Source of the DNA: Prevotella sp. | GTDB taxonomy: Bacteria > Bacteroidota > Bacteroidia > Bacteroidales > Bacteroidaceae | Reading direction: 5' to 3' | Assembly (NCBI GenBank): GCA_017645645.1 | Contig: JAGCOB010000009.1 | Span: forward strand, 53,898-117,897 | DNA length: 64,000 nt | In this document: positions 43,933-59,182 of the stretch, piece after piece | Layout: every line of letters begins with the position of its first letter | Position numbering within the stretch: position 1 is the first letter of the stretch | Made by a program: the position numbers and the translations under genes | The notes under the pieces: model-generated | Told to the model about the DNA's origin: nothing | Database searches by the model: none | Seen by the model: the letters and a program-made list of their open reading frames with translations, nothing else

Positions 43933-44474
43933 TTAAATACTCAATTCATCAAGCACATTGATAAGACGCTTGTCAAAGCGTTTGTCTGTACGGATACATT
44001 CCGTGAAAGGCACATAGACAATCTCATTCATACGGTAGCCCACCATAACATTACGCTGTCCTTGTTTGATCGCCTCAATGGCTCCTACGCCCATACAATT
44101 AGCCAGAATACGGTCGCGGGCTGAGGGGCTTCCTCCACGTTGCAAGTGTCCTAGGATAGAGACACGTACATCGAATTCAGGGAACTCGTGCTTTACACGG
44201 TCTGCGTAGTAAAGGGCACCACATTTGGGACTCTCAGAGACGATGACGATACATGACTTCTTTGGATAGTACCGCCTTTGGTGATGATACCACTGACATT
44301 CTCTGTAGTGAAATCTTTGACCTCACCCTTGATAAGACCGTCAAAGCCTCGATAGATACCTTTAATGTTAAAACAATTATAAATACCAGATCGTGTCACG
44401 GCGCGAATGGCTGCATTCATACCAGGGGCATCACCTCCTGATGTCAGAATTCCAATAGTCTTAATCTTACCCAT
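43933..44474 (-). pseudogene. pfkA: 6-phosphofructokinase remnant with internal deletion and frameshift
   Basis: The 5' part reads [26 protein letters not shown] to GIITKGGTI, clearly the N-terminus of ATP-type PfkA. At about 44262-44266 it jumps, one frame off, into [21 protein letters not shown], then [21 protein letters not shown] and the normal C-terminus. About 140 residues are missing, including the GGDGS and active-site PGTIDND region. The 5' part alone ends at 44193 and the 3' part has no proper start, so no active enzyme can be made. The promoter (44503-44534) is intact. Another phosphofructokinase is presumably elsewhere in the genome. An assembly collapse is an alternative. Confidence 0.85.
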
Positions 44475-44534: not shown

Positions 44535-44643
44535 TTTTTTATCCCTTCTTCACTTAACATTTCATGTTTACAAGCATTCTCCATAACGATCAAATCATCT
44601 GTCATACCAAACTTATGGTATATGAAAATGCCATTTAAAGGGT

Positions 44644-44675
44644 ATTGCGAGAGTGTAGATTTCACCGTACCTTTG
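44644..44675 (+). promoter_or_regulatory. Promoter of the cysteine-leader operon
   Basis: ATTG (44644-44647), a 20-bp spacer and TACCTTTG (44668-44675). The transcript should start near 44682, about 40 bases before the leader peptide ATG. Between this promoter and the pfkA promoter I see only a small hairpin (ATACCA/TGGTAT near 44610-44630). Confidence 0.75.
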
Positions 44676-44722
44676 CAGTGTCAAAAAGACATAGTAACAA
44701 ACAAATAAAAAACGTAAGAGTT

Positions 44723-44893
44723 ATGAAAACAATGATGATGAAACGAATGTGTTGCTGTTGTTGTAGCAGCATGCGCATGATGAGAAATGACAAGGAGGGA
44801 AGAGACCAACACATTATTAATATATATAAAGAACGACAAAAACATGAGAAAATCAGTATTCACCATAGCATTGCTCTTAGGGCTGCAAGCTAG
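44723..44893 (+). CDS. Cysteine-run leader peptide (56 codons)
   Basis: It starts MKTMMMKRMCCCCCSSMRMM: five successive Cys codons (44750-44764) and eight Met in the first 20 residues. The tail is hydrophilic and runs past the start of the next gene (44844), so translation of the two is physically linked. Peptides with runs of one amino acid upstream of an operon are the hallmark of ribosome-mediated attenuation. I do not see a classic terminator hairpin with a T tract between 44765 and 44843, so control may work through coupling or Rho instead. Annotated as a regulatory ORF; not expected to have a stand-alone function. Confidence 0.7.
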   Translation: MKTMMMKRMCCCCCSSMRMMRNDKEGRDQHIINIYKERQKHEKISIHHSIALRAAS

Positions 44894-45737
44894 TCAGACA
44901 GTAGGAGCACAGAACGAGCAGGTAACCCTTCGCGTACAGAATGCCGTACGACCATTAGTAGAGAAATGGGTTACCGAGTATACTAAAACCAACCATGACG
45001 CCACTTTCCAAATCGTTTCAGGGAAAGCAACCAACACAGAACATCAGATATCATTTGTGACAGAGCAGGATGCTGACGCTGTATTTTTTGCACGTTATGC
45101 TGTGCTGCCCGTCACCGTAAAGGAATCAGAGGCTTTTCAATTATTGAGCAACAAGCGTCTGAATGCCAAGAAGCTGAAGAGTCTCTTCTTCGTGAAGGAT
45201 GAGTTTGACGATGACACGAAAGAGAACAAAGTAGAGAAATCGCTTCATATCTACACAGGTAATAGCCAGCAGTCTGCCTCCCGTGCCTGGGCAGACAATT
45301 TTAAGCAGGAGACGAGTAATTATAAAGGTAAGAAGATCTCTGGGGATGATAGTTTTTTGAATACAGCAATCAGTCGTGACCCGTTAGGTATTGCCATCAA
45401 CTCTCTTTCCAATATTTTCGACTTACAGAGTCGCCAATTACGCAGCAACCTTTCCATCATCCCCCTCGACATCGATAAGCATGGAGAGCAGGTATTGGAT
45501 GAGGCACGTCTGGACGACATCATCCTCTTGTTGGAGCAGCAGCAGTTTGCCGAGATCCCAACGGGTAAGGTCGGTGTGGACTATGACCATCGCAACGCCA
45601 GTCAGAACGCTTTTGTTCGTTGGATATTAACAGATGGCAACAAATACATTCACGAGTACGGTTTGTTGCAGCTTCCCCAGAAGGAACTGACCGCACAGTT
45701 GCATCGTACCGAACAGCAAGAGTTAGCACAGAAATAA
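44844..45737 (+). CDS. Exported solute-binding-like protein (PBP type II fold)
   Basis: 297 aa with signal peptide MRKSVFTIALLLGLQASQTVGA. The mature sequence opens with TLRVQNAVRPLVEKWVTEYTKTNHDATFQIVSG, the pattern of PstS/sulfate-binding-like periplasmic proteins, and has the two-lobed arrangement of that fold. Ligand unknown. No ABC permease or ATPase is nearby, so it probably captures or presents a ligand to the SusC/SusD system or takes part in sensing. The start at 44844 is chosen because the signal peptide begins there. First structural gene after the Cys-run leader. Confidence 0.7.
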   Translation: MRKSVFTIALLLGLQASQTVGAQNEQVTLRVQNAVRPLVEKWVTEYTKTNHDATFQIVSGKATNTEHQISFVTEQDADAVFFARYAVLPVTVKESEAFQLLSNKRLNAKKLKSLFFVKDEFDDDTKENKVEKSLHIYTGNSQQSASRAWADNFKQETSNYKGKKISGDDSFLNTAISRDPLGIAINSLSNIFDLQSRQLRSNLSIIPLDIDKHGEQVLDEARLDDIILLLEQQQFAEIPTGKVGVDYDHRNASQNAFVRWILTDGNKYIHEYGLLQLPQKELTAQLHRTEQQELAQK

Positions 45738-45757
45738 TAAGGTAAAAAGATTTTGTT

Positions 45758-48700
45758 ATGAAAAAGAGAGTAGTACTATTTTTAATAGTGCTGGCTACGG
45801 TCTTGCCGTCTGCCGCACAGACAATTATCACAGGACGCATTGTGGATGCCCGTACAGGAGAGGCGTTGATTGGTGCATCTGTTGTCCCCAAGTCAAGTAA
45901 GGAGTTAGGTGCCGTTACCGATATTGATGGTAACTTCAAACTGGTAACCAACGTAGAGTTGCCCCTCACGCTGAGTGTACAGTATGTAGGCTATCGTCCG
46001 CAGGAGGTGGATGTCTATGATGCCTCCGAACCCGTCGATATCCAGTTGAGCGACAATGCCAGTCGTCTGAACGAAGTCGTCGTGATTGGCTACGGTGAAC
46101 AGAAGCGTCTGGAACTGACGAGTTCCATCTCCAGTGTTGGTGGTGATATCTTACGCCAGCAGAACAACTCGGTAGAGAGTGCCCTGCAGGGTGCGGTAGC
46201 AGGTCTTAACGTCACCCAGACCAGTGGTCAGCCAGGTGCGGCAAGCATCATCCGCATCCGTGGTGGTAACTCCATCACCGGTGGTAACGAACCCCTATAC
46301 GTCATTGATGGTTTTATCGTCTATAACGATCCTGCTGCCACCCGTACCGGTGCCAAGACGAGTGATGCCACACTTGACCCACTTGCCTTCCTGAATCCTG
46401 CCGACATCGAGAGCATCGAGGTCCTGAAGGATGTTTCAGCAACAGCTATTTACGGTACACGTGGTGCCAATGGTGTGATTATCATCACGACGAAGAAAGG
46501 TTCACATGGACGTAACAACATTACCTACGGAGCCAGTTTCGGATGGAGCTCTATTGCCAAGAAACTGAACTACATGAATGCACAGCAATGGGTAGACATC
46601 TGGCACGAGCTCTACCAGAACGGTGAACTGGGTTACGACCTCGACAACCCCACCGCCAGCTACGACTGGCAGAGCGAGGCGTTACGCACCGGTTTCCAGC
46701 AGGAACATCAGATTTCCGCCGTTGGTGGTGACGAGATTTCGCGTTATAGCGTCAGCGGTAACTTCAAAAGTCAGGACGGTATTGTCAAGGGTACGGGTCT
46801 AAAGCGCTATGCTGGTCGTGTCAACTACGAGCGTAACATCTTCAAGACACTCTTGGTCGGTGTGAATGCCAACATCGCTTACAACAAGATTACCGGTGTA
46901 TCAGACAACAGCGGTAACATGTTCCAGCCCAGTCCTTGGTTTGCTGCCATCTCTCACACACCATATACTCCTATTTATAATGCTGACGGTTCGTACAACT
47001 ACGATCCCACTCCTACCAGCATTGATATCTATAACGGAAAGGTTGGCAACCCCATCAGCGACCTGGAGAATACCAAGGCTGAGACGGAGAACACCCGTAC
47101 TATCGGTACCCTTTTCGCAGAGTGGACCGTCATCCCACAGTTGAAGTTGAAGGCAAGTCTGGGTGCCGATCTCTCGAACACCAACCAGAACTATTATGCG
47201 CCCTCATACACTACCAGTGGTCTCGCCAACAGCGGTTATGCTTCTGTTGGTCGTACGAAGACTCATACATGGCAGACTGAATATACTGCCACATACAGTA
47301 ATGTATTCAAAGGCAAGCATTCTGTCAACGCTTTGTTGGGTTATACCGCCCAGCGTACTGACCGTAGCAGTGTTGCCACAACAGCCTATGGATTCAGCAA
47401 CGATGCTACAGGCTACGATAACTTAGGTGCTGCCGCCACTACCCTGCCCTCCGTCAGCAGCCATTATGTTTCTACCCTCCAGTCGTGGATTGGTCGTGTA
47501 AACTACAGCTATGACTCACGTTATAATGCCTCACTCACACTGCGTGCCGACGGTTCGAGCCGTTTTGCCAAAGACCATCGTTGGGGATGGTTTCCCTCAC
47601 TGGGTCTCTCATGGAACATCGACCGTGAAAAGTGGCTCCATCTGGGCAAGAGCGTCGACTTCATCCAGTTGCGTGCCTCAGTAGGTACGGTGGGTAACCA
47701 GGAGATCGGTGACTACCAGTTTGCCGCCAACGTCGTGCCTCGCACCGTGATTATCAACAACCAGAAGGCTACCAGCTACATTATCGAGAACAAGTCGAAC
47801 CCTGATCTGAAGTGGGAGACAACCACCTCTTATAATATAGGACTGAGCACAGGTTTCTTCCAGAACCGACTGACCGTTACCCTCGATGCTTACTACAAGA
47901 AAACCAAGGACCTGTTGCTGGACGTTCCCGTGGAGCAGGTGACCGGTTTCTCCACTGTACTGCGTAACGTGGGCTCTGTCACCAACAAGGGTGTGGAGTT
48001 GGAGATCGGTGGTGTGCTGATTGACAAAAAGAACTGGCACTGGAATGTGAATGCGAATATCGCCCATAACAAGAACGAGGTGACCAGTCTGGGTAATTCC
48101 GAGTATTTCATTCCCGACTTTAACTCAGTAGGTACCCTTCAGTATATCAACCCATTGATCGTGAAGGTGGGCGAGCCTCTTGGTACATTCTACGGTTACA
48201 GGTTTAAAGGCATCATCCAGTCGGACGAGGACCTCAGCAAGTTGCCAGCACAGACCAATTCAACGGTTGAGCCAGGTAACCCCAAGTTCGAGGATGTCAA
48301 CGGCGACGGCGTTGTCAACGAACAGGACCGTGTGGTACTCGGCAATATACAGCCTAAGTTCACCTATGGCTTCAATACCAAGGTGGCTTATAAGAACTGG
48401 GACCTCTTCGTCAGCATCAGCGGTAGCTATGGCAACAAACTGTTCAACGCCCTTGCCTGCCGACTGGATCGCGGTAACGGTTACTACTATAACCCATTGG
48501 CAGAAGTTGCTGACCGTTGGACACCGACGAATCCCAGCAACACGATACAGAAGGCGACCAGTGCCACCTCTATCTATGCTGACGACCGTTTCGTGGAGAA
48601 TGCCAGCTACCTGAAGTTCCGTAATATTCAGTTGGGTTATACCCTGCCCGTTCCACAAATTACAAAGGATGCCAAGTTGCGCCTCTATGTATCGTTGCAG

Positions 48701-48850
48701 AACTTCTTCACCATCACAAACTACAACGGTTACGACCCAGAGGCAAACCGTAATGGTATCGACGAGACGAGTGCCCTCTATCAGGGAATTGACTATGGTG
48801 CCTATCCTATGGCTAAAACGGTATTATTCGGATTTAATATCACATTGTAA
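45758..48850 (+). CDS. SusC/RagA-type TonB-linked outer-membrane transporter
   Basis: 1030 aa. Signal peptide ending LPSAAQ, then a carboxypeptidase-regulatory-like domain (ITGRIVDARTGEALIGASV to DIQLSD), TonB box VVVIGYGEQKR, plug with LQGAVAGLNVTQTSG and the RagA signature IEVLKDVSATAIYGTRGANGVIIITTKKG, and a large barrel ending in VLFGFNITL. It forms the lid-and-barrel pair with the SusD protein encoded next. The substrate cannot be read, but the surrounding enzymes are not glycan-active, so a sulfur compound or peptide-like molecule is inferred. Confidence 0.95.
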   Translation: MKKRVVLFLIVLATVLPSAAQTIITGRIVDARTGEALIGASVVPKSSKELGAVTDIDGNFKLVTNVELPLTLSVQYVGYRPQEVDVYDASEPVDIQLSDNASRLNEVVVIGYGEQKRLELTSSISSVGGDILRQQNNSVESALQGAVAGLNVTQTSGQPGAASIIRIRGGNSITGGNEPLYVIDGFIVYNDPAATRTGAKTSDATLDPLAFLNPADIESIEVLKDVSATAIYGTRGANGVIIITTKKGSHGRNNITYGASFGWSSIAKKLNYMNAQQWVDIWHELYQNGELGYDLDNPTASYDWQSEALRTGFQQEHQISAVGGDEISRYSVSGNFKSQDGIVKGTGLKRYAGRVNYERNIFKTLLVGVNANIAYNKITGVSDNSGNMFQPSPWFAAISHTPYTPIYNADGSYNYDPTPTSIDIYNGKVGNPISDLENTKAETENTRTIGTLFAEWTVIPQLKLKASLGADLSNTNQNYYAPSYTTSGLANSGYASVGRTKTHTWQTEYTATYSNVFKGKHSVNALLGYTAQRTDRSSVATTAYGFSNDATGYDNLGAAATTLPSVSSHYVSTLQSWIGRVNYSYDSRYNASLTLRADGSSRFAKDHRWGWFPSLGLSWNIDREKWLHLGKSVDFIQLRASVGTVGNQEIGDYQFAANVVPRTVIINNQKATSYIIENKSNPDLKWETTTSYNIGLSTGFFQNRLTVTLDAYYKKTKDLLLDVPVEQVTGFSTVLRNVGSVTNKGVELEIGGVLIDKKNWHWNVNANIAHNKNEVTSLGNSEYFIPDFNSVGTLQYINPLIVKVGEPLGTFYGYRFKGIIQSDEDLSKLPAQTNSTVEPGNPKFEDVNGDGVVNEQDRVVLGNIQPKFTYGFNTKVAYKNWDLFVSISGSYGNKLFNALACRLDRGNGYYYNPLAEVADRWTPTNPSNTIQKATSATSIYADDRFVENASYLKFRNIQLGYTLPVPQITKDAKLRLYVSLQNFFTITNYNGYDPEANRNGIDETSALYQGIDYGAYPMAKTVLFGFNITL

Positions 48851-48890
48851 CGAAATACCAAAATCTCGAAATAACGAAATAACGATAATT
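48851..48890 (+). repeat. CGAAAT repeats between susC and susD
   Basis: Degenerate CGAAATA units (CGAAATACC, CGAAATAACGAAATAACG) fill the gap. The same units recur at 50475-50520 after susD. They resemble a dispersed intergenic repeat of Bacteroidota. Confidence 0.6.
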
Positions 48891-50474
48891 ATGAAAAAGA
48901 ATCTATTATATATCGCAGCCAGTCTGCTGCTTGCAAGCTGCGCAGACCTTGACCAGAGCTCTATCAGCTCTATCGACAAAGATAATTTCTATCAGAGCAA
49001 GGAAGATATCGAGACCGCCATCAATGGTATCTACCAGGAGTTTACGGTGGACGGATTCTATGGCATGTTCAACAACCAGAGTGTCTATATCAACGACCTG
49101 CAGACCGACTATGTGAAGGCTGGTGCACAGACCAACTCCGCTCACATCCGTGAGCTCAGTAACTTTGCCATTCAGCCCACCAACCTCTTCGTCAGCTATG
49201 CCTGGGAAGAGCACTATACCGCCATCAACCGCGCCAATGTGGTGATAGACAAAGTATCTGAGGCATCGTTCCTCGACGAACAGTCGAAACAGAACTACAT
49301 CAACGAGGCTCGTTTCCTGCGTGGTTTTATGTACTTCAACCTAGTACGCTATTTTGGAGGAGTTCCCATCGTACTGCACGACGGTGAGGGCGAGGGTGCT
49401 CCCCGCAACTCGACTGACGAGGTCTATCATCAGATTGTTGAGGACTTCACCGCTGCTGAGAGCCTGCCTGCCAACTATACCACGTTAGACAGTAAGGCGA
49501 ATAGTCTGGCTGCATCGGCAATTCTCTCGAAGGTTTACCTGACTTGGGCACAGACACTGACTGAGGAAGGAAGAGCCAACCAAGCCCAATTCTATCAGAA
49601 GGCTATCCAGTATGCCGACAAGATCATCAACTCCCAGAAATACCGTCTACTCGACAAGTTTATCGACAACTGGTCGGTTGACAAGAAGAACGGTCCAGAA
49701 CATATCTTCTCCATCGAGCACGACCGTACTATCAACGGTAACGTGTCAGGACACTGCACCTTTGCCACCAACTGGGATAATGCCGAGCCCGTGCTCCTGG
49801 CTACCAGCGACAAGTACTACGAGCAGACCGACCCTCGTGACCAGCGTCGTGACGGTTCATGGGCAAAGAAACTCTATAACCCCAACACGGGAGAGGACTT
49901 TGTATTTACCATCCCCCGCTTCCGTAAGTACATCGATTCGCTGAACTATGCCAACACGGCATCTCCAGGTAACTCCGCAGGTCAGTCGATCAACACGACC
50001 ATCATCCGCTATGCAGAGATCCTGCTCATCAAGGCTGAGGCTGAGAATGAGTTGAACGGTCCTACGACAGCAGCCTATGATGCCATCAACCAAGTACGCC
50101 GCCGAGCTTACTGGAGTCCCTACGAGGACACACAGTTCACGCCCTCTGACGGTTCTGCCCTCAACCTTTCCGGCTTGACAAAGGAACAGTTCCGTGAGAA
50201 GCTCCGTGAGGAGCGTCGTCTGGAGTTCATACTTGAGGGACAGCGGTGGTTCGACCTTATCCGTTGGCATATCCTGGTGAAATATGTGAAGGAGAATACG
50301 CCTACCGATGCCGAGACATTAGGTACCAAAACCACCAAGATACAGAATGTATCGAAGAAGAACTACCTGTTGCCATTGCCTCTGGAGCAGCTGATCCTGA
50401 ATCCGAATCTGGAGCAGAACTGGGGTTACAGCGGAGAGACAGGAGACGGCCCCTATGGACCAGAATATGAGTAA
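48891..50474 (+). CDS. SusD/RagB-type surface lipoprotein
   Basis: 527 aa from MKKNLLYIAASLLLASC (lipobox LASC); earlier in-frame starts lie within susC and are rejected. The N-terminal SusD region has INGIYQEFTVDGFYGMFNN and TPR-like helices (RFLRGFMYFNLVRYFGGVPIV). The C-terminal RagB/SusD signature is REERRLEFILEGQRWFDLIRWHI, and the protein ends LPLPLEQLILNPNLEQNWGY. It binds substrate at the cell surface as the lid of the SusC partner. Confidence 0.95.
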   Translation: MKKNLLYIAASLLLASCADLDQSSISSIDKDNFYQSKEDIETAINGIYQEFTVDGFYGMFNNQSVYINDLQTDYVKAGAQTNSAHIRELSNFAIQPTNLFVSYAWEEHYTAINRANVVIDKVSEASFLDEQSKQNYINEARFLRGFMYFNLVRYFGGVPIVLHDGEGEGAPRNSTDEVYHQIVEDFTAAESLPANYTTLDSKANSLAASAILSKVYLTWAQTLTEEGRANQAQFYQKAIQYADKIINSQKYRLLDKFIDNWSVDKKNGPEHIFSIEHDRTINGNVSGHCTFATNWDNAEPVLLATSDKYYEQTDPRDQRRDGSWAKKLYNPNTGEDFVFTIPRFRKYIDSLNYANTASPGNSAGQSINTTIIRYAEILLIKAEAENELNGPTTAAYDAINQVRRRAYWSPYEDTQFTPSDGSALNLSGLTKEQFREKLREERRLEFILEGQRWFDLIRWHILVKYVKENTPTDAETLGTKTTKIQNVSKKNYLLPLPLEQLILNPNLEQNWGYSGETGDGPYGPEYE

Positions 50475-50533
50475 CGAAACATCGAAATCTCGAAATACCG
50501 AAACATCGAAACAACAAAAAACAATAAAAAACA

Positions 50534-51577
50534 ATGAAAAAGAATTTATTTAGAACAGTTGCAGTGGCACTTCTCGTTGCCGCAGGTTTTCAATCAGTTG
50601 ACGCACAGTCACAAGTAGCAAACAATCGTCGTGAGCGCATCCTTCAGGTGCTTGACCAGAGTCGCCCTAACGAGTATATTCCAGCAGGCTTCTTTCTTCA
50701 TTTTGAGAACAAGCTGGGACGCAAGGCAGTACAGGATCATAAGGACTTCTATCGTGCCACCAACATGGACTTCGTGAAGGTGTTCTACGAGATCAGTGTC
50801 CCACAGATTGACATTAAGAGTGGTAAAGACTGGGAGAAGGTGCCCGTTTATGATGAGGCATTCTTCGCTCCTCAGGTGGCAGTCATCGAAGACCTTGCCC
50901 GTGAGTTCGGCAAAGAGGCATTCATCCTGCCTACTGTTTACTCTCCCCTTGCCCTTGCTCACCAGACCTTAGGTCGTGGCAAGGACCTGAAGAAACTGGC
51001 AGAGGAGAATCCCGTGGCTTTCGGTAAGGCTATCAAGAACCTCTCCCTCTCTATCGAGAACTACTTGCGTTCTGCTCGCAAGCATGGTGCTGACGGCTTC
51101 TATGTGTCCAGTCAGGGTGGTGACGGCAACTCCCTCTCTACTAAGATATGGAACGAGCAGGTACGTCAGTGGGACAAGCATGTCTCTGAGGTAGCTAACG
51201 AGATCGGTGAGATCAATATCCTGCATATCTGCGACTACGGTACACCGTTCAAGAATGCCGAGGCACTGTATGCCTTTGCCGACTATCCCGCCAGCATCAT
51301 CAACGTACCCTTGAATTTCTCTGACGGCTCTACCCTCAACTTGAAGGAGGCACAGAAGCGTTTCGGTCGTCCTATTTTCGGTGGTCTGGAGCGTCTGGGT
51401 GTCATTGCCACAGGATCTATTGAACAGGCGAAGGCTGCTGTCGACGAGGTGTTGGAGAATGCCTCTCCCAACTTCATTCTGGGTGCCGACTGCACCGTGC
51501 CTGGTGACACTGACTGGGAGAAGCTGCGTGCCGTCATTGACTACGCACACACCTGGAGACAGACTCATAAGAAGTAA
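50534..51577 (+). CDS. Exported UroD-family protein, first copy
   Basis: 347 aa. A signal peptide (MKKNLFRTVAVALLVAAG, cleavage near VDAQ) precedes a uroporphyrinogen-decarboxylase-fold domain. The zinc-methyltransferase pattern of MtaA/MetE-like members is present: HIC in NILHICDYG and a later Cys in LGADCTVPGDTDWEKLR. Cytoplasmic relatives decarboxylate porphyrins or transfer methyl groups to thiols; export is unusual. Absence of the typical UroD N-terminal RQAGRY motif argues against porphyrin decarboxylation. Paralogous to the next gene, with an identical stretch AVIDYAHTWRQTHKK at the end. Confidence 0.8.
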   Translation: MKKNLFRTVAVALLVAAGFQSVDAQSQVANNRRERILQVLDQSRPNEYIPAGFFLHFENKLGRKAVQDHKDFYRATNMDFVKVFYEISVPQIDIKSGKDWEKVPVYDEAFFAPQVAVIEDLAREFGKEAFILPTVYSPLALAHQTLGRGKDLKKLAEENPVAFGKAIKNLSLSIENYLRSARKHGADGFYVSSQGGDGNSLSTKIWNEQVRQWDKHVSEVANEIGEINILHICDYGTPFKNAEALYAFADYPASIINVPLNFSDGSTLNLKEAQKRFGRPIFGGLERLGVIATGSIEQAKAAVDEVLENASPNFILGADCTVPGDTDWEKLRAVIDYAHTWRQTHKK

Positions 51578-51601
51578 TTGACCATTTTAATTTTAAGTAA
51601 T

Positions 51602-52615
51602 ATGGAGGGAAAAATTATAAAATTGTTGTTACTCTCAGCAATTACACTGACAGCTTGTTCCGTACAACAGGAAGAGCAGGTGACGAACAAGCGTGACCTG
51701 ATAGAGCAGGTGCTTGACCTGTCAAAAGCACCAGACGTAATACCAGCAGCCTTTTTCCACCATTTCCCCGATAAATTCGGACCAAAGGCAATAGAGGAGC
51801 ACATCGCCTTCTTCAAAGCCACTGGTAACGACATATTGAAAGTGCAGTACGAGACTCTGCCTCCGCAATGGGAAATCAAAACCGCCAAGGATTTCGAGAA
51901 GGTTGTGGAATTACCTACTGAGTATTTTGAGGATCAACTGCAGGTCATTGAAGCATTGGCAAAGCAATACAAGGATTCGGCTCTAATCATTCCGACGGTT
52001 TATTCTCCGTTACTGATTCTCCATCAGGCTGCCGGTGGACCGGCAGTTGACGAAGTCATCAAACAGAATCCAGCCGCTGCGGAACCTGCTTTTGAAAAGC
52101 TGGCAAAGAGTATTGCCAACTATATCCGCGCAGCTCGCGAACGTGGTGCTGATGGATTCTATGTCTCCTCGCATGGTGGTAATATAGAGTTCTTCGGTCA
52201 GGATTCTGAAGTATGGACGAAGTATCTTCGCAAGTGGGATAAATACATTTCTGAAATTGCCGATTCTGTAGCTCCTCTGAACATTCTGCATATTTGCGGA
52301 GGCGAGTATAAGGACCTCGATGCATGGGCAGACTATCCTGGCACCATCATCAACCTTCCAGAGTTTGACGTGAAGAAGCTTCGCCACGCTCAGGAGGTAT
52401 TCAAGCGTCCCATCCTCGGAGGACTCGATCATCGTGGAGTACTCATCAACGGAACACTCGAAGAGCTATTGGCTCATGTCGATACCATACTTACAGAAGG
52501 ACCTCAGAATCTGATTCTCGGTGCCAACTGCACAGTACCCGATTCTACATCCAGCGAGCGTCTGCGTGCCGTCATCGACTACGCACACACCTGGCGACAG
52601 ACACATAAAAAATAA
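51602..52615 (+). CDS. UroD-family lipoprotein, second copy
   Basis: 337 aa from MEGKIIKLLLLSAITLTAC, a lipoprotein signal with lipobox LTAC; an ATG eight codons upstream is less likely. The domain is the same as in the preceding gene, with NILHICGGEY and LGANCTVPDSTSSERLR as the probable zinc ligands H-x-C and Cys. So one copy is soluble in the periplasm and one is lipid-anchored. Divergence between the copies is substantial except in the core motifs and the C-terminus. They may form a heterodimer, which is inference. Confidence 0.8.
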   Translation: MEGKIIKLLLLSAITLTACSVQQEEQVTNKRDLIEQVLDLSKAPDVIPAAFFHHFPDKFGPKAIEEHIAFFKATGNDILKVQYETLPPQWEIKTAKDFEKVVELPTEYFEDQLQVIEALAKQYKDSALIIPTVYSPLLILHQAAGGPAVDEVIKQNPAAAEPAFEKLAKSIANYIRAARERGADGFYVSSHGGNIEFFGQDSEVWTKYLRKWDKYISEIADSVAPLNILHICGGEYKDLDAWADYPGTIINLPEFDVKKLRHAQEVFKRPILGGLDHRGVLINGTLEELLAHVDTILTEGPQNLILGANCTVPDSTSSERLRAVIDYAHTWRQTHKK

Positions 52616-52635
52616 AAGAACTAGAATGTCGGTCT

Positions 52636-53493
52636 ATGAACAGGAGAGAATTTCTTGAGAATACAGCCAAAGCAATAATTCCTACCACAGGAATATTGCT
52701 TGCGGCTTCTCACCCAACCTTGGCAAAGGCTCTGGAGCAAGTAGACCTCGACGACCAGCCAGCCCCTCATCAGGATAAGACACCATTCAAGTTCGAAGGC
52801 TTCAATGAGCGTGTACAGGCTTATATCGTAGCTCGTTATTACGTCAGACTGACAGACACCTACGGCAAGCAAGGTCTCGATACTTTCCTGCTGGCAACAC
52901 GAACCTACGCTGAACAGCGTGGACATCGTATGGCACAACGTGCGCTAGCCGACGGACAGGAATTAAACTATGTGACGTATTACAAATATGGAGAATGGGT
53001 TCCGTCGGAAGAAATCAAGAAACGTGGCGAGGCTCTTCAGAGTGAGCCTATTAAGGATATCTCCTATCAAGCAACCAAGATTACACGCTGCCCCTGGGCC
53101 ATACAGTTCCGCGAGATGGGATTGTCTAAGGCTGGACTGGCTTACTGCAAGGATTTGGATGCCTCTATCTATCGTGGATTCAATCCTGCTATCGCCTATG
53201 AGACTCGCCAAACGCTCAACGATCACGATTATTGTGTACAATGTGCTCCTGGCACCAGAGTACCCGACGAAGCACTGACTTGCCCTAAATACAAAAAAGG
53301 ACTACGTTCCTTTGAATATCATTGTGCTCATACGTACTGGACTTTTCGTCAGGTCATCTCGTCGGTATTCGGCAATAACGGTGTTACTATCGCAAAAGGT
53401 GTCTTGAGTGATGTTGAACAGGATCTGGGTAAAAAGTTTGTCACAACACTAAAGAAATACAAGAAGACCGACTTCAACGTCGCCAATATTTAA
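52636..53493 (+). CDS. Tat-exported L-2-amino-thiazoline-4-carboxylate hydrolase-like protein
   Basis: 285 aa. It begins MNRREFLENTAKAIIPTTG, a twin-arginine signal (RREFL), then a hydrophobic segment. The central part matches my memory of the ATC hydrolase family: ITRCPWAIQFREMGL, AYCKDLDASIYRGFNP, and RQTLNDHDYCVQC, with C152, C171, D173 and C200 likely essential. In Pseudomonas, ATC hydrolase opens the thiazoline ring to N-carbamoyl-L-cysteine. Tat export suggests a folded or cofactor-containing protein. The family call needs a profile search. Position before an amidohydrolase supports a two-step cysteine-releasing route. Confidence 0.62.
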   Translation: MNRREFLENTAKAIIPTTGILLAASHPTLAKALEQVDLDDQPAPHQDKTPFKFEGFNERVQAYIVARYYVRLTDTYGKQGLDTFLLATRTYAEQRGHRMAQRALADGQELNYVTYYKYGEWVPSEEIKKRGEALQSEPIKDISYQATKITRCPWAIQFREMGLSKAGLAYCKDLDASIYRGFNPAIAYETRQTLNDHDYCVQCAPGTRVPDEALTCPKYKKGLRSFEYHCAHTYWTFRQVISSVFGNNGVTIAKGVLSDVEQDLGKKFVTTLKKYKKTDFNVANI

Positions 53494-53508
53494 AACTTCA
53501 TCGAATAA

Positions 53509-54972
53509 ATGAAAAAGACTGTGTTAATTATGCTGCTAGCAGGGTTGGCACTTAACATCCAGGCAGCAAAAAAGGAAAAAAGCAATAATAAGGCAAAGGT
53601 AGCCATTGACTATCTGGACCGTCATTTCCAGACTTATGATAAGCTTCAGAAAACCATCTGGGCTGATCCAGAACTTGGGTTCCTCGAGACCAACAGCAGT
53701 GGACTATTGAAACAGCACCTACGTGAAAATGGGTTTACCATTGAAGAAGGCGTGGCAGGTATGCCTACTTCTTTCATAGCAACTTATGGCAGCGGAAGTC
53801 CAGTCATTGGTCTATTGGCAGAATTCGACGCACTGCCAGGTCTGTCACAGGACACTGTCCCTTATCGCAAACCTGTGAAGGAAGGTGCACCAGGGCATGG
53901 CTGTGGACATAACACTTTCGGTGTGGGCTCTACTGCGGCTGCAGTGTCACTTAGTAAGTGGTTAGCTACCAACAAACATAGTGGTACCATCAAAGTATAT
54001 GGCACACCTGCCGAAGAAGGTGGTGCCGGTAAGGTTTATCTGGTACGCGAAGGTCTCTTCACGGGTGTCGATGTCGTACTCGACTGGCATCCATCTAGCG
54101 TCAATGCGGTTTCTACCAATGGTGGTACTGCCATGGTGATGGTTGACTATAAGTTCTATGGGAAACCAGCCCACGCAGCAGGTAATCCCTGGAAGGGTCG
54201 TTCTGCACTCGACGCAGTAGAATCGTTCGATTATATGGTGAATCTTCTTCGAGAGCACATTCCCACATCCAGCCGTATCCATTACGTGATTCCTGATGGT
54301 GGTTTTGCACCAAATGTCGTACCCGAGTACGCCCGTGTATCTTATTATATCCGTAGTCCTAAACGAGATATTCTTAACACACTCACGGAGTGGATTGATT
54401 CTGCCGCTGTTGGTGCCGCCAAAGGCACACAGACTCGTGTAGAGAAGGAAATCATCGCCGGTACCTACGAGCGTCTGCACAACAAGACTCTTTCAAAAGT
54501 GATTCAGAGGAATCTGGAGATTGTCGGTGGTGTGAAGTACGATGCACGCGAACGCCAGTATGCTTTAGATCTCATTCGTGCCACAGGCAATCCCGATTCA
54601 CTGGTCAATGAGGCTGCCAAGGTACAGCCACTAGCAGAGTTCCCCGAAGAAGGAAGTGGCGGTTCGAGCGATGTTGGCGATGTATCGTGGGTTGTTCCCC
54701 TTGCCAGTTTTGGCGCAGCCACATTTGTTCCCGGCAGCCCGGGTCACAGTTGGCAGAATGTGGCAGCTGACGGTACCACCATCGGTACCAAGGGATTGCT
54801 CAATGCCAGTCGCGTATTCGCACTCACAGCTGTAGATTTGTTTACAGATGCCAAACTGCTTCAAACTGTTAAGGACGAGTTCAAGCAGGTGGTTGGCAGT
54901 GACTTTAAGTATGTGCCCTTATTAGGCGACAGGAAGCCAGCACTCGACTATCGCGTCACAAAGAAGGATTAG
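53509..54972 (+). CDS. Exported M20-family amidohydrolase
   Basis: 487 aa with signal peptide MKKTVLIMLLAGLALNIQA. Metallohydrolase motifs: LLAEFDALPG, the metal ligands in GHGCGHNTFG, YGTPAEEGGAGK with the catalytic Glu pair, and a dimerisation domain containing GKPAHAAGNPWKGRSALDAVE. This is the AbgB/HipO-like M20D branch, which splits N-acyl or peptide bonds of amino-acid conjugates. In the ATC pathway the second enzyme is an N-carbamoyl-cysteine amidohydrolase also of the M20 superfamily, so a matching role here is plausible but not proven. Confidence 0.85.
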   Translation: MKKTVLIMLLAGLALNIQAAKKEKSNNKAKVAIDYLDRHFQTYDKLQKTIWADPELGFLETNSSGLLKQHLRENGFTIEEGVAGMPTSFIATYGSGSPVIGLLAEFDALPGLSQDTVPYRKPVKEGAPGHGCGHNTFGVGSTAAAVSLSKWLATNKHSGTIKVYGTPAEEGGAGKVYLVREGLFTGVDVVLDWHPSSVNAVSTNGGTAMVMVDYKFYGKPAHAAGNPWKGRSALDAVESFDYMVNLLREHIPTSSRIHYVIPDGGFAPNVVPEYARVSYYIRSPKRDILNTLTEWIDSAAVGAAKGTQTRVEKEIIAGTYERLHNKTLSKVIQRNLEIVGGVKYDARERQYALDLIRATGNPDSLVNEAAKVQPLAEFPEEGSGGSSDVGDVSWVVPLASFGAATFVPGSPGHSWQNVAADGTTIGTKGLLNASRVFALTAVDLFTDAKLLQTVKDEFKQVVGSDFKYVPLLGDRKPALDYRVTKKD

Positions 54973-54998
54973 CAGTAATATAATAAAAAGAGGTAAGG

Positions 54999-55898
54999 AT
55001 GAAAAAAACGAAATGGATATCAGTAATATTTTGGGGATTGTTGTTCTCTGCATGCAACAGCAGTGATGAGGCAGTACCTATTAACATACCATCTGAGGAT
55101 GATGACGTGTGCTGCTCCCAAGACGATGAAAAAAACATCAGCCAGATCCTTGCCGGGTTTAAAGAGGTGACAGGATTGTCAAGACAAAGCACAGGAGACT
55201 ATACTGTAAAGGTCTATGCACGGACATCCAATCTGCAGGTAGGTCATAACGACCTTTACTTTACTGTGGAGAAGACCGAGAGCGGACGTCACGTGAAAGA
55301 CTTTACAGTTAGCGACCTGTCACCTTTGATGGACATGGGGACAATGAAACACAGTACTCCTATCGCCAATAAGTTCGACCAGATAGAGAACTATCCCATC
55401 TATCATACGTGGGTGGCACCTCTGATGGCAGGCGAATGGACGCTGTCATTCAACTATCGCATCAAGGACCTTACGGGCACATTCACCGGAGGAACGATTA
55501 CGATAGACGCTATACCCAGCGAACAGGTATGGATCAAATCCTTTAAATGGAACGACGTGACTTACTTCCTCACCCTCGCCCATCCACAGGATTTGAAGAC
55601 TGGAGTCAACACCTTGAGTGCTTACATCTCGAAGAAAGGCGATGACGGCACCCTACCCTATCTCCCTGCATCGGAGACCTTCACGATTGACATCTACCCC
55701 ACGATGCCCGATATGGGTAACCATACCTCTCCCAACAACGAGCCTCTCACCCGAAAGGAGGACGGCAGTTATCAGGGACTGCTGAACCTCACGATGACGG
55801 GTGTCTGGGACATTCATCTGAATGTGAAGGATGCTACGGGTAACACGGTGGCTGGTGGTGAGGAACTAAGCGATCTTTATTGGACGATTTCCATTTGA
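54999..55898 (+). CDS. Lipoprotein with two YtkA/FixH-like domains
   Basis: 299 aa. Lipobox FSAC near residue 19, followed by an acidic spacer with CCS. Two beta-sandwich domains carry the YtkA/FixH pattern: LSPLMDMGTMKHSTPI ... MAGEWTLSFNY and PTMPDMGNHTSPNNEP ... MTGVWDIHLNV. In other bacteria the Met/His-rich MPDMG segment is linked to copper or other soft-metal handling. It lies 26 bp after the amidohydrolase and 29 bp before a receptor with copper-receptor motifs, so a shared metal role is likely. Confidence 0.72.
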   Translation: MKKTKWISVIFWGLLFSACNSSDEAVPINIPSEDDDVCCSQDDEKNISQILAGFKEVTGLSRQSTGDYTVKVYARTSNLQVGHNDLYFTVEKTESGRHVKDFTVSDLSPLMDMGTMKHSTPIANKFDQIENYPIYHTWVAPLMAGEWTLSFNYRIKDLTGTFTGGTITIDAIPSEQVWIKSFKWNDVTYFLTLAHPQDLKTGVNTLSAYISKKGDDGTLPYLPASETFTIDIYPTMPDMGNHTSPNNEPLTRKEDGSYQGLLNLTMTGVWDIHLNVKDATGNTVAGGEELSDLYWTISI

Positions 55899-55927
55899 GG
55901 CATTAGGTCTCTATATTTCAGGTACAG

Positions 55928-57895
55928 ATGATTTCGTTAATTGTTTCTCTCGGAATGTTATGTTCCCAGGACACCGTTCACAAGGAGACGACCATCGACG
56001 AGGTGGTCGTCTCCTCAACTGTGGGCTCCGGGAAAAAGACTGTCAGCAAAGGACGAGTAGCCAGTATCGATGAGCATCTGTCCAAACTGTCGAGAGTCGA
56101 GATGGTGCGTCGAGGCAACTATGCCTGGGAACCTGTTGTCAACAACATGGCAACTGAGCGTGTCTCAACGACTATTGACGGCATGAAAATATTCTATGCT
56201 TGTACGGACAAGATGGATCCCGTGACATCCTATGTGGAGAGCAGTAACCTACAGCGTATCAGTCTGAACTCAGGACTGGACGGCAACCCGCAGGCTACGG
56301 GCAACATCGGAGGCAGCATAGACCTGAAATTACGTCGTGTGGGTTTTGATGCAAAACCTTCAGAGTATAATGCCTCTGCGGGTTACGAATCAAATGGCAA
56401 CGTACAAGTGTATGGGGCTGATGCCGCCTTCTCTACCCATCGTTTCTATACCAACTTCGGTGTGTTCTACCGACATGCGGATAATTACAAAGCGGGAGGG
56501 CACCAGAGCGTTGACTTCTCACAGTTCCAGAAGACCAATGCCTTTACCAATATCGGATGGCAACCTGCCGACGACCATATCATAGAAGCAACACTCATCT
56601 ACGACATCGCAAGGGATATCGGTTATCCGGCTTTAGCGATGGACGTAAAGAAAGCCGAGGGTATCATTGTCTCACTGGCTTATCGGCGGGAACATCTGAG
56701 CCGGTTGTTACATCGCTGGGAAACGAAGATGTATTATAATCATATCACCCATAATATGGATGACACCAAGCGTCCCGATGTACAGATTCACATGGACATG
56801 CCTGGCAAAAGTCAGACGACAGGTCTCTACAGTCTGCTGCAGGGCGTAAAGGGTAAGCATTATTTCCAGTTGAACTACGATGCCTACTACAACAAGCTGT
56901 TTGCTGATATGACGATGTATCCTGACGGTGGACAACCCATGTATATGCTCACATGGCCTGACGTGGGAACCTTCAATACAGGTCTGGCACTGACGGACGA
57001 TATCACGTTTGCCCCTCATCACCACATCCGCCTGTCGGCAAAGGGTGCGTGGCAGCACCAGCAAATCAACAGCGACGAGGGTTATCAGGCTCTGAGCATC
57101 TACTTCCCTGGGATGGACAAGGGCAACTCCAGCCTCATCGGTCGTCTGGCATTCAGCTATGCCTACGAACACAGCGGTTGGAGAATAGCCGTCGGCACAG
57201 GTTACGGCACACGAGCCCCAACGGTTACGGAGAGCTATGGTTATTTCCTGAATAACACCTTCGACCAGTACGACTATATCGGCAACCCCTACCTGAAGAA
57301 CGAAAAAGCGATAGAGGTTAATGCCTCTGTGGAATGGAGAAGCGACAAGTTGGCGTTCAAGGCTGAGACAAACACGTTTTTCTTTCAGGACTATATCATC
57401 GGACGACCTGACACACGTCTCTCACCCATGACCATCGGAGCTGCCGGCGTGAAGGTCTATCAGAACCTGAAGAATGCCCAGATCGTCAATGCCTCACTGA
57501 CAGCCGATTGCCAACTGGTCAGTTGGCTGCAATGGGAAAACCACCTTTCCTACAGTTACGGACAGGAGAGTACCGGTGCCCGCTTGCCACTGATCGCTCC
57601 ATTGTCGTACTTAGGTAATCTACGTTTCCGCTGGCACCATCTTGAGGCTGAGGGTGGTGTGCGCATGGCAGCCCGCAACAGTCATTGCGGAAATGAATAC
57701 GGAGAGACACCCACAGCAGGCTATGCTGTCTGGCACTTGAACTTGGGGGGACATTTCCAATGGGGTAAGTTGGGGACGGACATACACTTAGGCGTGGAGA
57801 ACCTGTTCGACCGCTACTATTCCACCTACTCCGACTGGAACCATATTCCCCAGAAGGGACGTAACTTCTATGTGAATGTATCCTTCCAACTATAA
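55928..57895 (+). CDS. TonB-dependent receptor with copper-receptor motifs (OprC/NosA-like)
   Basis: 655 aa with a short signal sequence (MISLIVSLGMLCS), TonB-box-like TIDEVVVSS, plug and barrel ending in YVNVSFQL. The plug contains IDGMKIFYACTDKMDPVT: C92 and M96 make the CxxxM motif known from the copper receptor OprC. A HxM motif occurs at H275-M277, at nearly the same distance as in OprC. A second candidate is HMDM at 288-291. It therefore probably imports copper or a copper complex. It is the last gene of the cysteine-leader run. Confidence 0.82.
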   Translation: MISLIVSLGMLCSQDTVHKETTIDEVVVSSTVGSGKKTVSKGRVASIDEHLSKLSRVEMVRRGNYAWEPVVNNMATERVSTTIDGMKIFYACTDKMDPVTSYVESSNLQRISLNSGLDGNPQATGNIGGSIDLKLRRVGFDAKPSEYNASAGYESNGNVQVYGADAAFSTHRFYTNFGVFYRHADNYKAGGHQSVDFSQFQKTNAFTNIGWQPADDHIIEATLIYDIARDIGYPALAMDVKKAEGIIVSLAYRREHLSRLLHRWETKMYYNHITHNMDDTKRPDVQIHMDMPGKSQTTGLYSLLQGVKGKHYFQLNYDAYYNKLFADMTMYPDGGQPMYMLTWPDVGTFNTGLALTDDITFAPHHHIRLSAKGAWQHQQINSDEGYQALSIYFPGMDKGNSSLIGRLAFSYAYEHSGWRIAVGTGYGTRAPTVTESYGYFLNNTFDQYDYIGNPYLKNEKAIEVNASVEWRSDKLAFKAETNTFFFQDYIIGRPDTRLSPMTIGAAGVKVYQNLKNAQIVNASLTADCQLVSWLQWENHLSYSYGQESTGARLPLIAPLSYLGNLRFRWHHLEAEGGVRMAARNSHCGNEYGETPTAGYAVWHLNLGGHFQWGKLGTDIHLGVENLFDRYYSTYSDWNHIPQKGRNFYVNVSFQL

Positions 57896-57952
57896 TACCA
57901 TGTGATAGCAAAATACCACAGAGTTGGTATTTCCGTATCATCATTTTCTTTA

Positions 57953-57960
57953 TACCTTTG
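57953..57960 (+). promoter_or_regulatory. -7 element of the symporter gene
   Basis: TACCTTTG, with an imperfect TTTC 19 bp upstream. The leader is about 14 bases before the ATG at 57980. This separates the symporter from the cysteine-leader operon. Confidence 0.55.
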
Positions 57961-57979: not shown

Positions 57980-59182
57980 ATGAAAAAAACAATATTATGG
58001 ATAGGAGCACTCGTATTGGGTGCGATAATAGGACTGTTGGGATTGAATTGGCTCAACGGTCTGATGGATTTCTTAGCGACAGTCTATACACGACTGTTCC
58101 AGTTGTTGGCAGTACCGACCATCGTACTGGCGGTGATAACCACCTTTGCCACCTTCGGCTCCAAGGGGTCAGGTCGCATCTTCGGACGAACTGTCATCTA
58201 CACGCTGTTGACAACTGTTGCGGCAGCCGTAGTGGGAGCCTTGCTCTATGTGACAGTTGCCCCGAGTAACCTACCCGTCGATGTTATCAGTCTGGGCGAC
58301 AGTGCTATCGCTGAAGCCCCTCAACAGTCGTACTACACTCACATCCTCAGTGTGATACCCAACAACATTGTCAAACCGATTCTCGAAGGCAACGTTCTAT
58401 CACTACTGTTACTGGCTTTTGTGGTTGGCATCGGACTGTCAAAACTGCCAGATTCAGAGAATAAAGCTGTTGTGGTCAAGGGACTGCTGGGGTTGCAGGA
58501 CCTGCTCTTCCTGCTCATTCGGGGACTCATCTGGACACTCCCATTGGGCATCGTGGCGTTCTCTGCTCAACTGTCAGAACAGATCAGTGCAGGCATGGTG
58601 GCTGACTCGATAGGTAAGTACGTGATTGTGGTGCTGGGCGGCAACGTGCTCCAGTTCTTCGTTGTCCTACCATTGTTCCTGTTGGCGCGTAAACTGAACC
58701 CGATCCGTGTGTTGAGTCGTATGATGCCTGCGGTATTGATGGCTCTCTTCACCAAGAGTAGTGCAGCCACCTTACCCGTCACCATGGAGACAGCAGAGCA
58801 ACGGTTAGGAGTCAAGAGCAATATCGCACGTTTCGTACTACCTATCTGTACCACTATCAATATGAACGGCTGTGCCGCTTTTATCCTCGTCACCTCACTC
58901 TTTGTGATGCAGAATGGGGGTACACCACTCACATGGTCAACTGTCCTGTTATGGATTCTGATATCTGTGGTATCGGCAATAGGTAACGCAGGAGTACCGA
59001 TGGGGTGCTACTTCCTGACACTCTCCCTGATGTCAGGCATCAATGCCCCCGTTGCCGTCCTCGGTATCATCCTCCCCATCTATACCATTATCGACATGGT
59101 GGAGACGGCAGTCAATGTATGGAGTGACTCTTGTGTCTGTGCGATGACCGACCACGACCTTACGGACAGAAACGAAGGGTGA
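57980..59182 (+). CDS. Dicarboxylate/amino acid:cation symporter (DAACS family)
   Basis: 400 aa, eight transmembrane helices plus two re-entrant hairpins expected. Family motifs: TKSSAATLPVTME in hairpin 1, CTTINMNGCAAF in place of the usual TINMDGTA, and the final helix ILPIYTIIDMVETAVNVWSDS. At the position of the arginine that binds the acidic side chain in glutamate transporters (DMxRT) this protein has Glu (DMVET). A neutral or basic amino acid is therefore more likely than a dicarboxylate. The start at 57980 is set by the promoter; an upstream in-frame ATG would lie before it. It overlaps the convergent gene by 23 bp. Confidence 0.88.
   Translation: MKKTILWIGALVLGAIIGLLGLNWLNGLMDFLATVYTRLFQLLAVPTIVLAVITTFATFGSKGSGRIFGRTVIYTLLTTVAAAVVGALLYVTVAPSNLPVDVISLGDSAIAEAPQQSYYTHILSVIPNNIVKPILEGNVLSLLLLAFVVGIGLSKLPDSENKAVVVKGLLGLQDLLFLLIRGLIWTLPLGIVAFSAQLSEQISAGMVADSIGKYVIVVLGGNVLQFFVVLPLFLLARKLNPIRVLSRMMPAVLMALFTKSSAATLPVTMETAEQRLGVKSNIARFVLPICTTINMNGCAAFILVTSLFVMQNGGTPLTWSTVLLWILISVVSAIGNAGVPMGCYFLTLSLMSGINAPVAVLGIILPIYTIIDMVETAVNVWSDSCVCAMTDHDLTDRNEG

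Follow-up and report, generated by a model that had tools for sequence, protein, structure and literature searches.

The stretch of Prevotella sp. DNA analyzed here (GCA_017645645.1, contig JAGCOB010000009.1, 53,898–117,897 of the forward strand; 64,000 nt, below called the window, whose numbering is used throughout) contains, at positions 44644..57895, a leader open reading frame (ORF) with a run of cysteine codons and, behind it, nine genes for exported proteins, all on the plus strand. A tenth member of the gene set, encoding an SDF-family symporter, lies beyond the end of this locus. It is probable, at roughly 0.7 by our own estimate, that the operon serves to scavenge organic sulfur under a shortage of cysteine or methionine, and that it is controlled in two layers, by an operator palindrome and by the leader. 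This reading is built on the observed gene order, leader, operator, regulon membership and protein motifs.

Conservation of the locus

The URO-D family protein was used as the marker for finding the locus in other genomes, since the protein resembling hydrolases of 2-amino-thiazoline-4-carboxylic acid (ATC; the ATC-like protein) was too rare and was passed over. The contig scan confirmed 103 stretches, the best 80 of which gave 77 named loci; the majority belong to Prevotella and Prevotellaceae, and some to Tannerellaceae and Dysgonamonadaceae. Strain names, instead of MAG titles, are attached to L053, L073, L117 and L090, the last of which is without the leader. Among the genomes of the same genus, a match to the first of the two URO-D proteins of the window (URO-D1) was present in 28 of 249, weak and distant matches included, and in 8 of the 107 better ones.

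The order, which was strongly conserved, was leader, binding protein (BP), SusC, SusD, one to three copies of URO-D, and SDF symporter, with two optional cassettes, one of the ATC-like and M20 genes and the other of the YtkA and receptor genes. ORFs for SusC, SusD and URO-D were found together in 56 of the 77 loci, which are here called core loci; these included BP in 49, the SDF symporter in 43 and the YtkA protein or the receptor in 11. With tblastn, YtkA or the receptor was detected in 17 of all 77 loci. A sulfur-linked gene (PatB, MetB/OAHS, CysK, SrpI, desulfurase-type, DsrE, JAMM or LuxR) was present in the examined flanks of 35 core loci, or 31 when loci with JAMM only or LuxR only were left out. 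The flank genes were clustered by single linkage and profiled through one member per cluster, and the extra ORFs of the other loci were profiled in part. In two loci, extra genes were situated between URO-D/M20 and SDF (L084:13317-14678 and L079:11050-13091), encoding acyl-transferase/amidase-like (PF03417, below cut-off), ATP-grasp-like (below cut-off) and esterase-like proteins.

The first-pass annotation of this DNA had proposed looking for linkage of the URO-D, ATC-like and M20 genes behind a cysteine-run ORF in other genomes. Linkage was found, mostly in Prevotella, as the order given above: URO-D behind a leader rich in Met and Cys is recurrent, and the ATC-like and M20 genes are rare accessories.

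The adjacent SusC and SusD genes, with TIGR04056, PF07980 and PF14322 over their cut-offs, place the locus among the SusCD nutrient-uptake loci. It resembles those of Bacteroidota (polysaccharide utilization loci, PUL, and RagAB) in that genes of exported processing proteins stand in the same run as a SusC/RagA and SusD/RagB pair. It differs from them in the sulfur operator, the Met/Cys leader and the exported URO-Ds, as well as in having an SLC1-type symporter as the last step and, by Pfam, no glycoside hydrolase among the operon genes of the window.

The leader ORF

The upstream regions of 49 loci (the window and 48 others) were compared, the most Cys/Met-rich ORF starting with ATG being taken as the leader in each. 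In 45 of them the leader had one common reading frame with respect to BP and ran into the BP gene. Its stop was located at +65 from the BP start in 23 regions, at +50 in 17, at +71 in two, and at +56 and +20 in one each, and one leader was open to the end of the stretch examined. Before the BP start, Met made up 18.9% and Cys 9.6% of the leader residues in these 45 regions, compared to 2.4 and 1.9% in nucleotide shuffles. In the window the leader begins MKTMMMKRMCCCCCSSMRMMRND... and its stop codon occupies 44891-44893; no signal peptide was seen in it by eye. A short 5' ORF rich in the regulatory amino acids, as in amino-acid leader attenuators, was present in 45 of the 49 regions, the choice of ORF being biased toward such composition. 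The ORF overlap suggests a translational mode of control.

The first-pass annotation had described the element as a cysteine-run leader. It is Cys-rich, and the run is of five Cys in the window and in the loci most closely related to it. Many loci have other patterns, for example MKRMCNMRMREYCCC, and many are without a run of at least four. With both Met and Cys, the element is more than a cysteine run and amounts to a leader of sulfur amino acids. The 15-nt Cys-run pattern was present in five places of the window's own genome; of the other four, two lay opposite long ORFs, one was poly-Gln on the other strand and one was C3:663. The idea that any Cys run marks a leader was rejected, as three of the four read as antisense to other frames.

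The leader looks as if it were an insert in the 5' untranslated region: the distance from operator to BP was 89-111 nt in L061, L090 and L098, which have no Met/Cys-rich leader, and 216-322 nt in the 43 loci with a leader for which it was measured.

According to an excerpt of PMC9031893, mycobacteria have short upstream ORFs with contiguous Cys codons before operons, reportedly responsive to cysteine supply (Canestrari et al. 2020). The leader resembles these polycysteine leaders, as far as the excerpt describes them, in being a short Cys-run ORF upstream of an operon, and differs in belonging to another phylum, in having Met besides Cys and an operator upstream, in running out of frame into the first gene, with an overlap of mostly 50 or 65 nt, and in beginning about 40 nt past the predicted start point, so that it would not be leaderless.

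The operator palindrome and its regulon

The palindrome TACCA-N6-TGGTA, with one mismatch at most, was present upstream in 50 of the 51 loci that had at least 420 nt of upstream sequence. Its center and the -7 box were 53-55 nt apart in 45 of the 50 loci (55 nt in the window). The palindrome of the symporter gene of the window is about two helical turns nearer to its box (Table 1). Another exact palindrome, at window position 10366, was taken as a chance occurrence, being inside an 854-codon open frame with no -7 box behind it.

The pattern was searched for in 11 genomes, and 17 regions, chosen mainly as full palindromes and recurring sequences, were then read; about a dozen further sites lie outside these regions. 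The genomes (G numbers) and the contig-scan loci (L numbers) appear to be in part the same, as with G559 and L053. In 10 of the 17 regions the site stood before an O-acetylhomoserine (OAH) sulfhydrylase (OAHS) gene with cysK, before cysK, or before a LuxR regulator gene with MetB/OAHS, and the distance to the -7 box was 54 nt at all 11 sulfur-gene sites in them. In G429 the LuxR-MetB/OAHS group continues with genes of PatB, CysK, DsrE-like, TusA-like and encapsulin proteins. Profiles were over cut-off for OAHS, CysK and PatB (TIGR01326, TIGR01139 and TIGR04350), and the DsrE2-like and TusA-like proteins were below theirs. In the window's own genome an SrpI encapsulin, with its profile over cut-off, is near the LuxR/sulfur-enzyme group.

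Divided by gene class, the site was present before BP in 49 of 51 cases, CysK in 10 of 10, DsrE in 4 of 5, MetB/OAHS in 3 of 10 and SDF in 9 of 50; in the controls it preceded 14 of 287 singletons and 1 of 54 SusC genes. ThiF/TcdA-type genes of a cluster called c0 (L054, L075, L088, L117 and others) often had the operator as well. A gene for a LuxR-type, response-regulator-like protein carries the operator upstream of its own start in L206:2562-3203 and L203:2720-3364 (G000:C29), and this protein is a candidate regulator.

In an excerpt of PMC8049743, a family 2A encapsulin with a cysteine desulfurase is described as a sulfur-starvation system. Likewise, as far as the excerpt allows comparison, some loci have SrpI (PF19307) and a desulfurase-type class-V aminotransferase next to the operon or within the regulon group; here, unlike there, the encapsulin is a neighbor outside the operon.

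The Met/Cys leader and an operator that also stands before cysteine and sulfur genes support the function proposed by the first-pass annotation, sulfur acquisition induced by shortage of sulfur amino acids, the direction of control being presumed. The Met-richness, the overlap of leader and BP, the palindrome and the SDF symporter with its own palindrome had been missed there.

Gene set of the window

The promoter, the five-Cys leader and the nine same-strand genes for exported proteins of the first-pass annotation were confirmed (Table 1). Its envelope location for the products agrees with the export signals, which were judged by eye: type I signals in BP, SusC, URO-D1, the M20 protein and the receptor, lipoboxes in SusD, URO-D2 and the YtkA protein, and a twin-arginine NRREFL in the ATC-like protein. 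The operon of the window has no ABC transporter gene. Rfam gave no matches in the window at gathering thresholds, and no tRNA was found in it. Upstream of the operon, a 6-phosphofructokinase-like ORF (44193-44474) has only 93 aa, the counterpart in the nearest relative, L053, having 325 aa; the region is 435 nt shorter than in L053, by deletion or as an assembly artefact.

Table 1. Features of the operon and the symporter gene, in window positions.
Feature	Position	Strand	Remarks
Operator palindrome ATACCA-N6-TGGTAT	44604..44621		Candidate activator site; recurs in other loci and at sulfur genes
-7 promoter box TACCTTTG	44668..44675	+	Taken by us to be of the Bacteroidota TAnnTTTG type; seen at other loci too
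Leader ORF, 56 aa, Met-/Cys-rich, five Cys codons	44723..44893	+	Starts with ATG; out-of-frame 50-nt overlap with BP gene
BP, exported, type-2 periplasmic-binding-protein-like	44844..45737	+	Model (pLDDT 84) and Foldseek
SusC/RagA TonB-dependent transporter	45758..48850	+	TIGR04056, 883 bits, over cut-off
SusD/RagB lipoprotein	48888..50474	+	PF07980 and PF14322 over cut-off
URO-D1, exported URO-D family protein (HxC and third Cys)	50534..51577	+	PF01208 over cut-off; alignments
URO-D2, URO-D family lipoprotein (HxC and third Cys)	51602..52615	+	PF01208 over cut-off; 47% identity with URO-D1
ATC-hydrolase family protein, Tat-like signal, optional module	52636..53493	+	PF14196, 52.1 bits, cut-off 28.1
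M20D amidohydrolase, exported, HmrA/Xaa-Arg-dipeptidase-like, optional module	53509..54972	+	TIGR01891 over cut-off; PDB 3ram, E 4e-50
YtkA-domain lipoprotein, optional module	54999..55898	+	PF13115 over cut-off
OprC-like TonB-dependent receptor, CxxxM and HxM, optional module	55928..57895	+	TIGR01778, 133.9 bits, cut-off 472.45; OprC 6fok, E 4e-23
Second exact operator palindrome, before symporter gene	57914..57929		31 nt to symporter -7 box
-7 box of SDF symporter gene	57953-57960	+	The symporter's own box
SDF/SLC1-family symporter	57980..59182	+	PF00375 over cut-off; start corrected from 57902

Core proteins

BP had no match in Pfam or NCBIfam. Its model, built with 35 sequences, has a type-2 periplasmic binding protein fold, for which Foldseek listed PstS-type phosphate-binding proteins at the top (E 1e-10, TM about 0.6) and ModA lower. 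Sequence searches of the PDB with BP, URO-D2 and the ATC-like protein gave nothing useful.

The HxC motif of the URO-Ds was kept in all 97 hits longer than 750 nt. At the third position Cys was present in 65 and Asp in 26, the remaining six being unassigned; in the window, both URO-D proteins have the HxC and the third Cys, the residues in URO-D1 being His231, Cys233 and Cys320. The motif aligned with LHIC of MtaA (4ay7) in an alignment that covers the HxC part only. In MtaA, the H-x-C...C residues are what we take to be zinc ligands. Since the MtaA-like HxC was found in 97 of 97, the sequences suggest that the URO-Ds are exported zinc-thiol proteins. They resemble the MtaA/CmuA methyltransferases of the URO-D superfamily in the LHIC segment and perhaps in the third Cys or Asp further along, and differ from them in being exported, in that no corrinoid protein was seen in the operon, and in scoring below the model cut-offs: the MtaA/CmuA model TIGR01463 gave 32 and 56 bits for URO-D1 and URO-D2, compared to a cut-off of 235. 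Two fusions were observed, a 1046-codon frame with a glycosidase-like protein (GH92-like by eye) and a URO-D domain (L049:7352-10489), and an 862-aa M28 peptidase-URO-D protein of an uncultured Bacteroides (L123:8405-10990), the N-terminus of which is signal-like.

At the specificity position, which is Arg in E. coli TcyP and Glu in SstT, the SDF symporter has Glu; by this comparison its substrate would rather be a small neutral amino acid. Cystine transport, also considered, was weakened by the same residue.

Accessory modules and alternative explanations

The pathway of the first-pass annotation, in which a thiazoline is imported, its ring opened by the ATC hydrolase and cysteine released by an N-carbamoylase, we regard as unlikely. 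PF14196 was over its cut-off, and a route from DL-ATC through N-carbamoyl-cysteine to cysteine is described for Pseudomonas in an excerpt of PMC10821248. The ATC-like gene stood directly before M20 in all six cases seen, including the window and L096, a Dysgonamonadaceae locus. However, most loci lack both genes by sequence search, so that this is not the core function: the ATC-like gene was present in 1 of 40 genomes (the window's own), in 2 of 393 genomes of the order (the own one and a weak one), in four other loci by sequence, and in L096, where it was found only by Pfam. Further genes as distant as that of L096 may have escaped the search. The model of the ATC-like protein is poor (pLDDT 61, from five sequences). 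As to M20, the closest proteins in the PDB were HmrA and Xaa-Arg dipeptidase, it belongs to the TIGR01891 subfamily, and the sole carbamyl-type model listed, ErtE, scored 18 bits against a cut-off of 520. The step from N-carbamoyl-cysteine to cysteine therefore has only the name of the ATC family behind it, and the assignment of M20 as a carbamoylase was not upheld. A thiazoline metallophore as the substrate is a conjecture.

Quite unlikely, too, is copper acquisition as the main function, in which the nascent leader peptide, like CutF, would respond to copper, and Cu(I)-thiol complexes would be handled by the receptor, YtkA and the thiol proteins. The receptor aligned with OprC of Pseudomonas aeruginosa (6fok) over most of its length, with C92-TDK-M96 and H275-N-M277 at the OprC ligand columns, although it remained below the TIGR01778 cut-off for OprC/NosA and, unlike OprC, is an accessory within a sulfur operon. 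The CxxxM/HxM residues are presumably the copper ligands of OprC. All four were invariant in the 10 receptors aligned (that of the window and 9 of the 15 further hits, the others being partial or near-identical), so that the motif reported by the first-pass annotation is real, at OprC-homologous positions. A TonB-dependent receptor gene was found near 12 of the 56 core loci (L061, L063, L075, L082, L088, L112 and others), six of these loci also having an HMA-domain protein. It represents a second possible metal link; this or YtkA/receptor was present in 23 of the 56. Translational control by copper has a precedent in CutF, according to an excerpt of PMC9973294. Against this, the operator marks sulfur genes and was found before only 2 of 16 YtkA genes, CutF is exported and the leader shows no signal peptide by eye, and 36 of the 45 leaders occur in loci without YtkA or the receptor in the DNA examined, some of these loci being cut by contig ends. 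Because of these 36 leaders, and because YtkA/receptor is limited to 11 core loci, copper handling is optional and not core; of the copper role proposed by the first-pass annotation, the receptor ligands stand and the central place does not.

An ordinary SusCD-type peptide or glycan utilization locus that merely carries a sulfur operator, with URO-Ds acting on sugars or cofactors unrelated to sulfur, would account for the SusC/SusD pair, the fusions in L049 (by eye) and L123 and a sugar-type ABC transporter neighbor of a distant URO-D in L122 (by eye), but it is improbable in view of the lack, by Pfam, of a glycoside hydrolase in the window operon, the sulfur-linked flank genes, the Met/Cys leader and the presence of SDF in 43 of the 56 core loci, in the window under its own operator copy.

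Proposed mechanism

For the proposed sulfur-scavenging operon, we infer from the observed features in which direction each control works, that zinc is present, how transport proceeds and to what class the substrate belongs. In the first layer of control, an activator, perhaps the regulon's own LuxR-type protein, would bind ATACCA-N6-TGGTAT, some 54 nt ahead of the -7 box, and switch on the operon together with OAH sulfhydrylase, cysteine synthase and the LuxR/PatB/DsrE/TusA/encapsulin group. The second layer would be the leader ORF, which crosses the start codon of BP, the first gene. Judging from this anatomy, in which the leader crosses the BP start in another frame, completed translation of the leader should hinder initiation at BP. 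With a good supply of sulfur amino acids, the leader ribosomes would pass over the BP start and lower initiation; under scarcity, they would stall upstream at the Met/Cys codons and leave the start free.

SusC/SusD would bring a sulfur compound across the outer membrane, and one to three exported URO-Ds would use a zinc site to hold or activate the thiol or thioether of this compound. The optional hydrolases, ATC-like and M20, may release a small amino acid, after which the SDF symporter would import a neutral amino acid, cysteine or an S-substituted cysteine, to the cytoplasm, where PatB/CysK would take up the sulfur. Cysteine-containing peptides or S-substituted cysteines fit best as candidate substrates, since PatB, M20 and the M28-URO-D fusion of L123 occur as neighbors.

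Several observations weigh against this interpretation. The modeled fold of BP resembles the PstS/ModA oxyanion binders and gives no pointer to a thiol, and some distant URO-Ds are, by eye, beside or fused to sugar-type genes. In 21 of the 77 URO-D loci the core is not seen, these being short or cut contigs or distant URO-Ds. The locus counts include many close relatives and near-duplicates (e.g. L057/L058 and L115/L116) and are thus not independent.

As to the leader, it was picked by Cys/Met content, which biases its composition; the frame and the stop position were not selected for. Frame +1 also had 7.4% Cys, though with 328 stops, and the codon-position bias of the leader was modest (2439/2587/3374 differences at positions 1/2/3 in 355 non-independent pairs). 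Four of the 49 regions had no leader in this frame: L090 and L098 were without a Met/Cys-rich ORF, L061 had an ORF without Met/Cys enrichment ending before BP, and L067 a Cys-rich ORF with its stop before BP. Hairpins at the Cys codons showed only a moderate excess (0.81 vs 0.60 in the control, higher in 40 of 45), and no terminator was noticed at the leader by eye, no terminator scan having been made.

As to the operator, the palindrome had 62 matches in the 11 genomes compared to 40 for the reversed pattern, full palindromes being counted twice, and in 7 of the 17 regions read (L204, L205, L208, L209, L210, L213 and L214) the site was in coding frames or before an unrelated gene. Because over whole genomes the pattern does not greatly outnumber its reverse, the case for the operator rests on position and gene class. 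Flank genes of PatB (0/9), SrpI (0/6), CyD (0/3), JAMM (0/13) and LuxR (1/5) were mostly without a site of their own, and the mixed ThiF-type cluster c0 had it in 12 of 31 cases. The genes without a site may perhaps be inner operon genes.

A more far-reaching version of the proposal can be offered only tentatively: the exported URO-Ds might be zinc-thiol enzymes of a new class, extracytoplasmic and corrinoid-free, which dealkylate or transfer S-alkyl/S-metal groups. With them a Bacteroidota cell could remove sulfur from thioethers or Cu(I)-thiolates before these reach the cytoplasm, and the controlling leader would read the supply of Met and Cys together by ribosome occlusion of the overlapping gene start.

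Each element has a known relative: the SusCD loci, the polycysteine leaders, OprC, MtaA, and the sulfur-starvation encapsulin with cysteine desulfurase. No recognizable description of the combination, of the gene-overlapping Met and Cys leader or of the sulfur operator was found in searches of the open-licence literature. If the proposed function is correct, the locus, which belongs to a gene set mainly of rumen Prevotella, would be a SusCD system serving sulfur instead of carbon, the operator would define a cysteine regulon in these bacteria, the leader would possibly sense two sulfur amino acids together, and the exported URO-D proteins would have their first physiological setting, all of these points being testable in cultured Prevotella.

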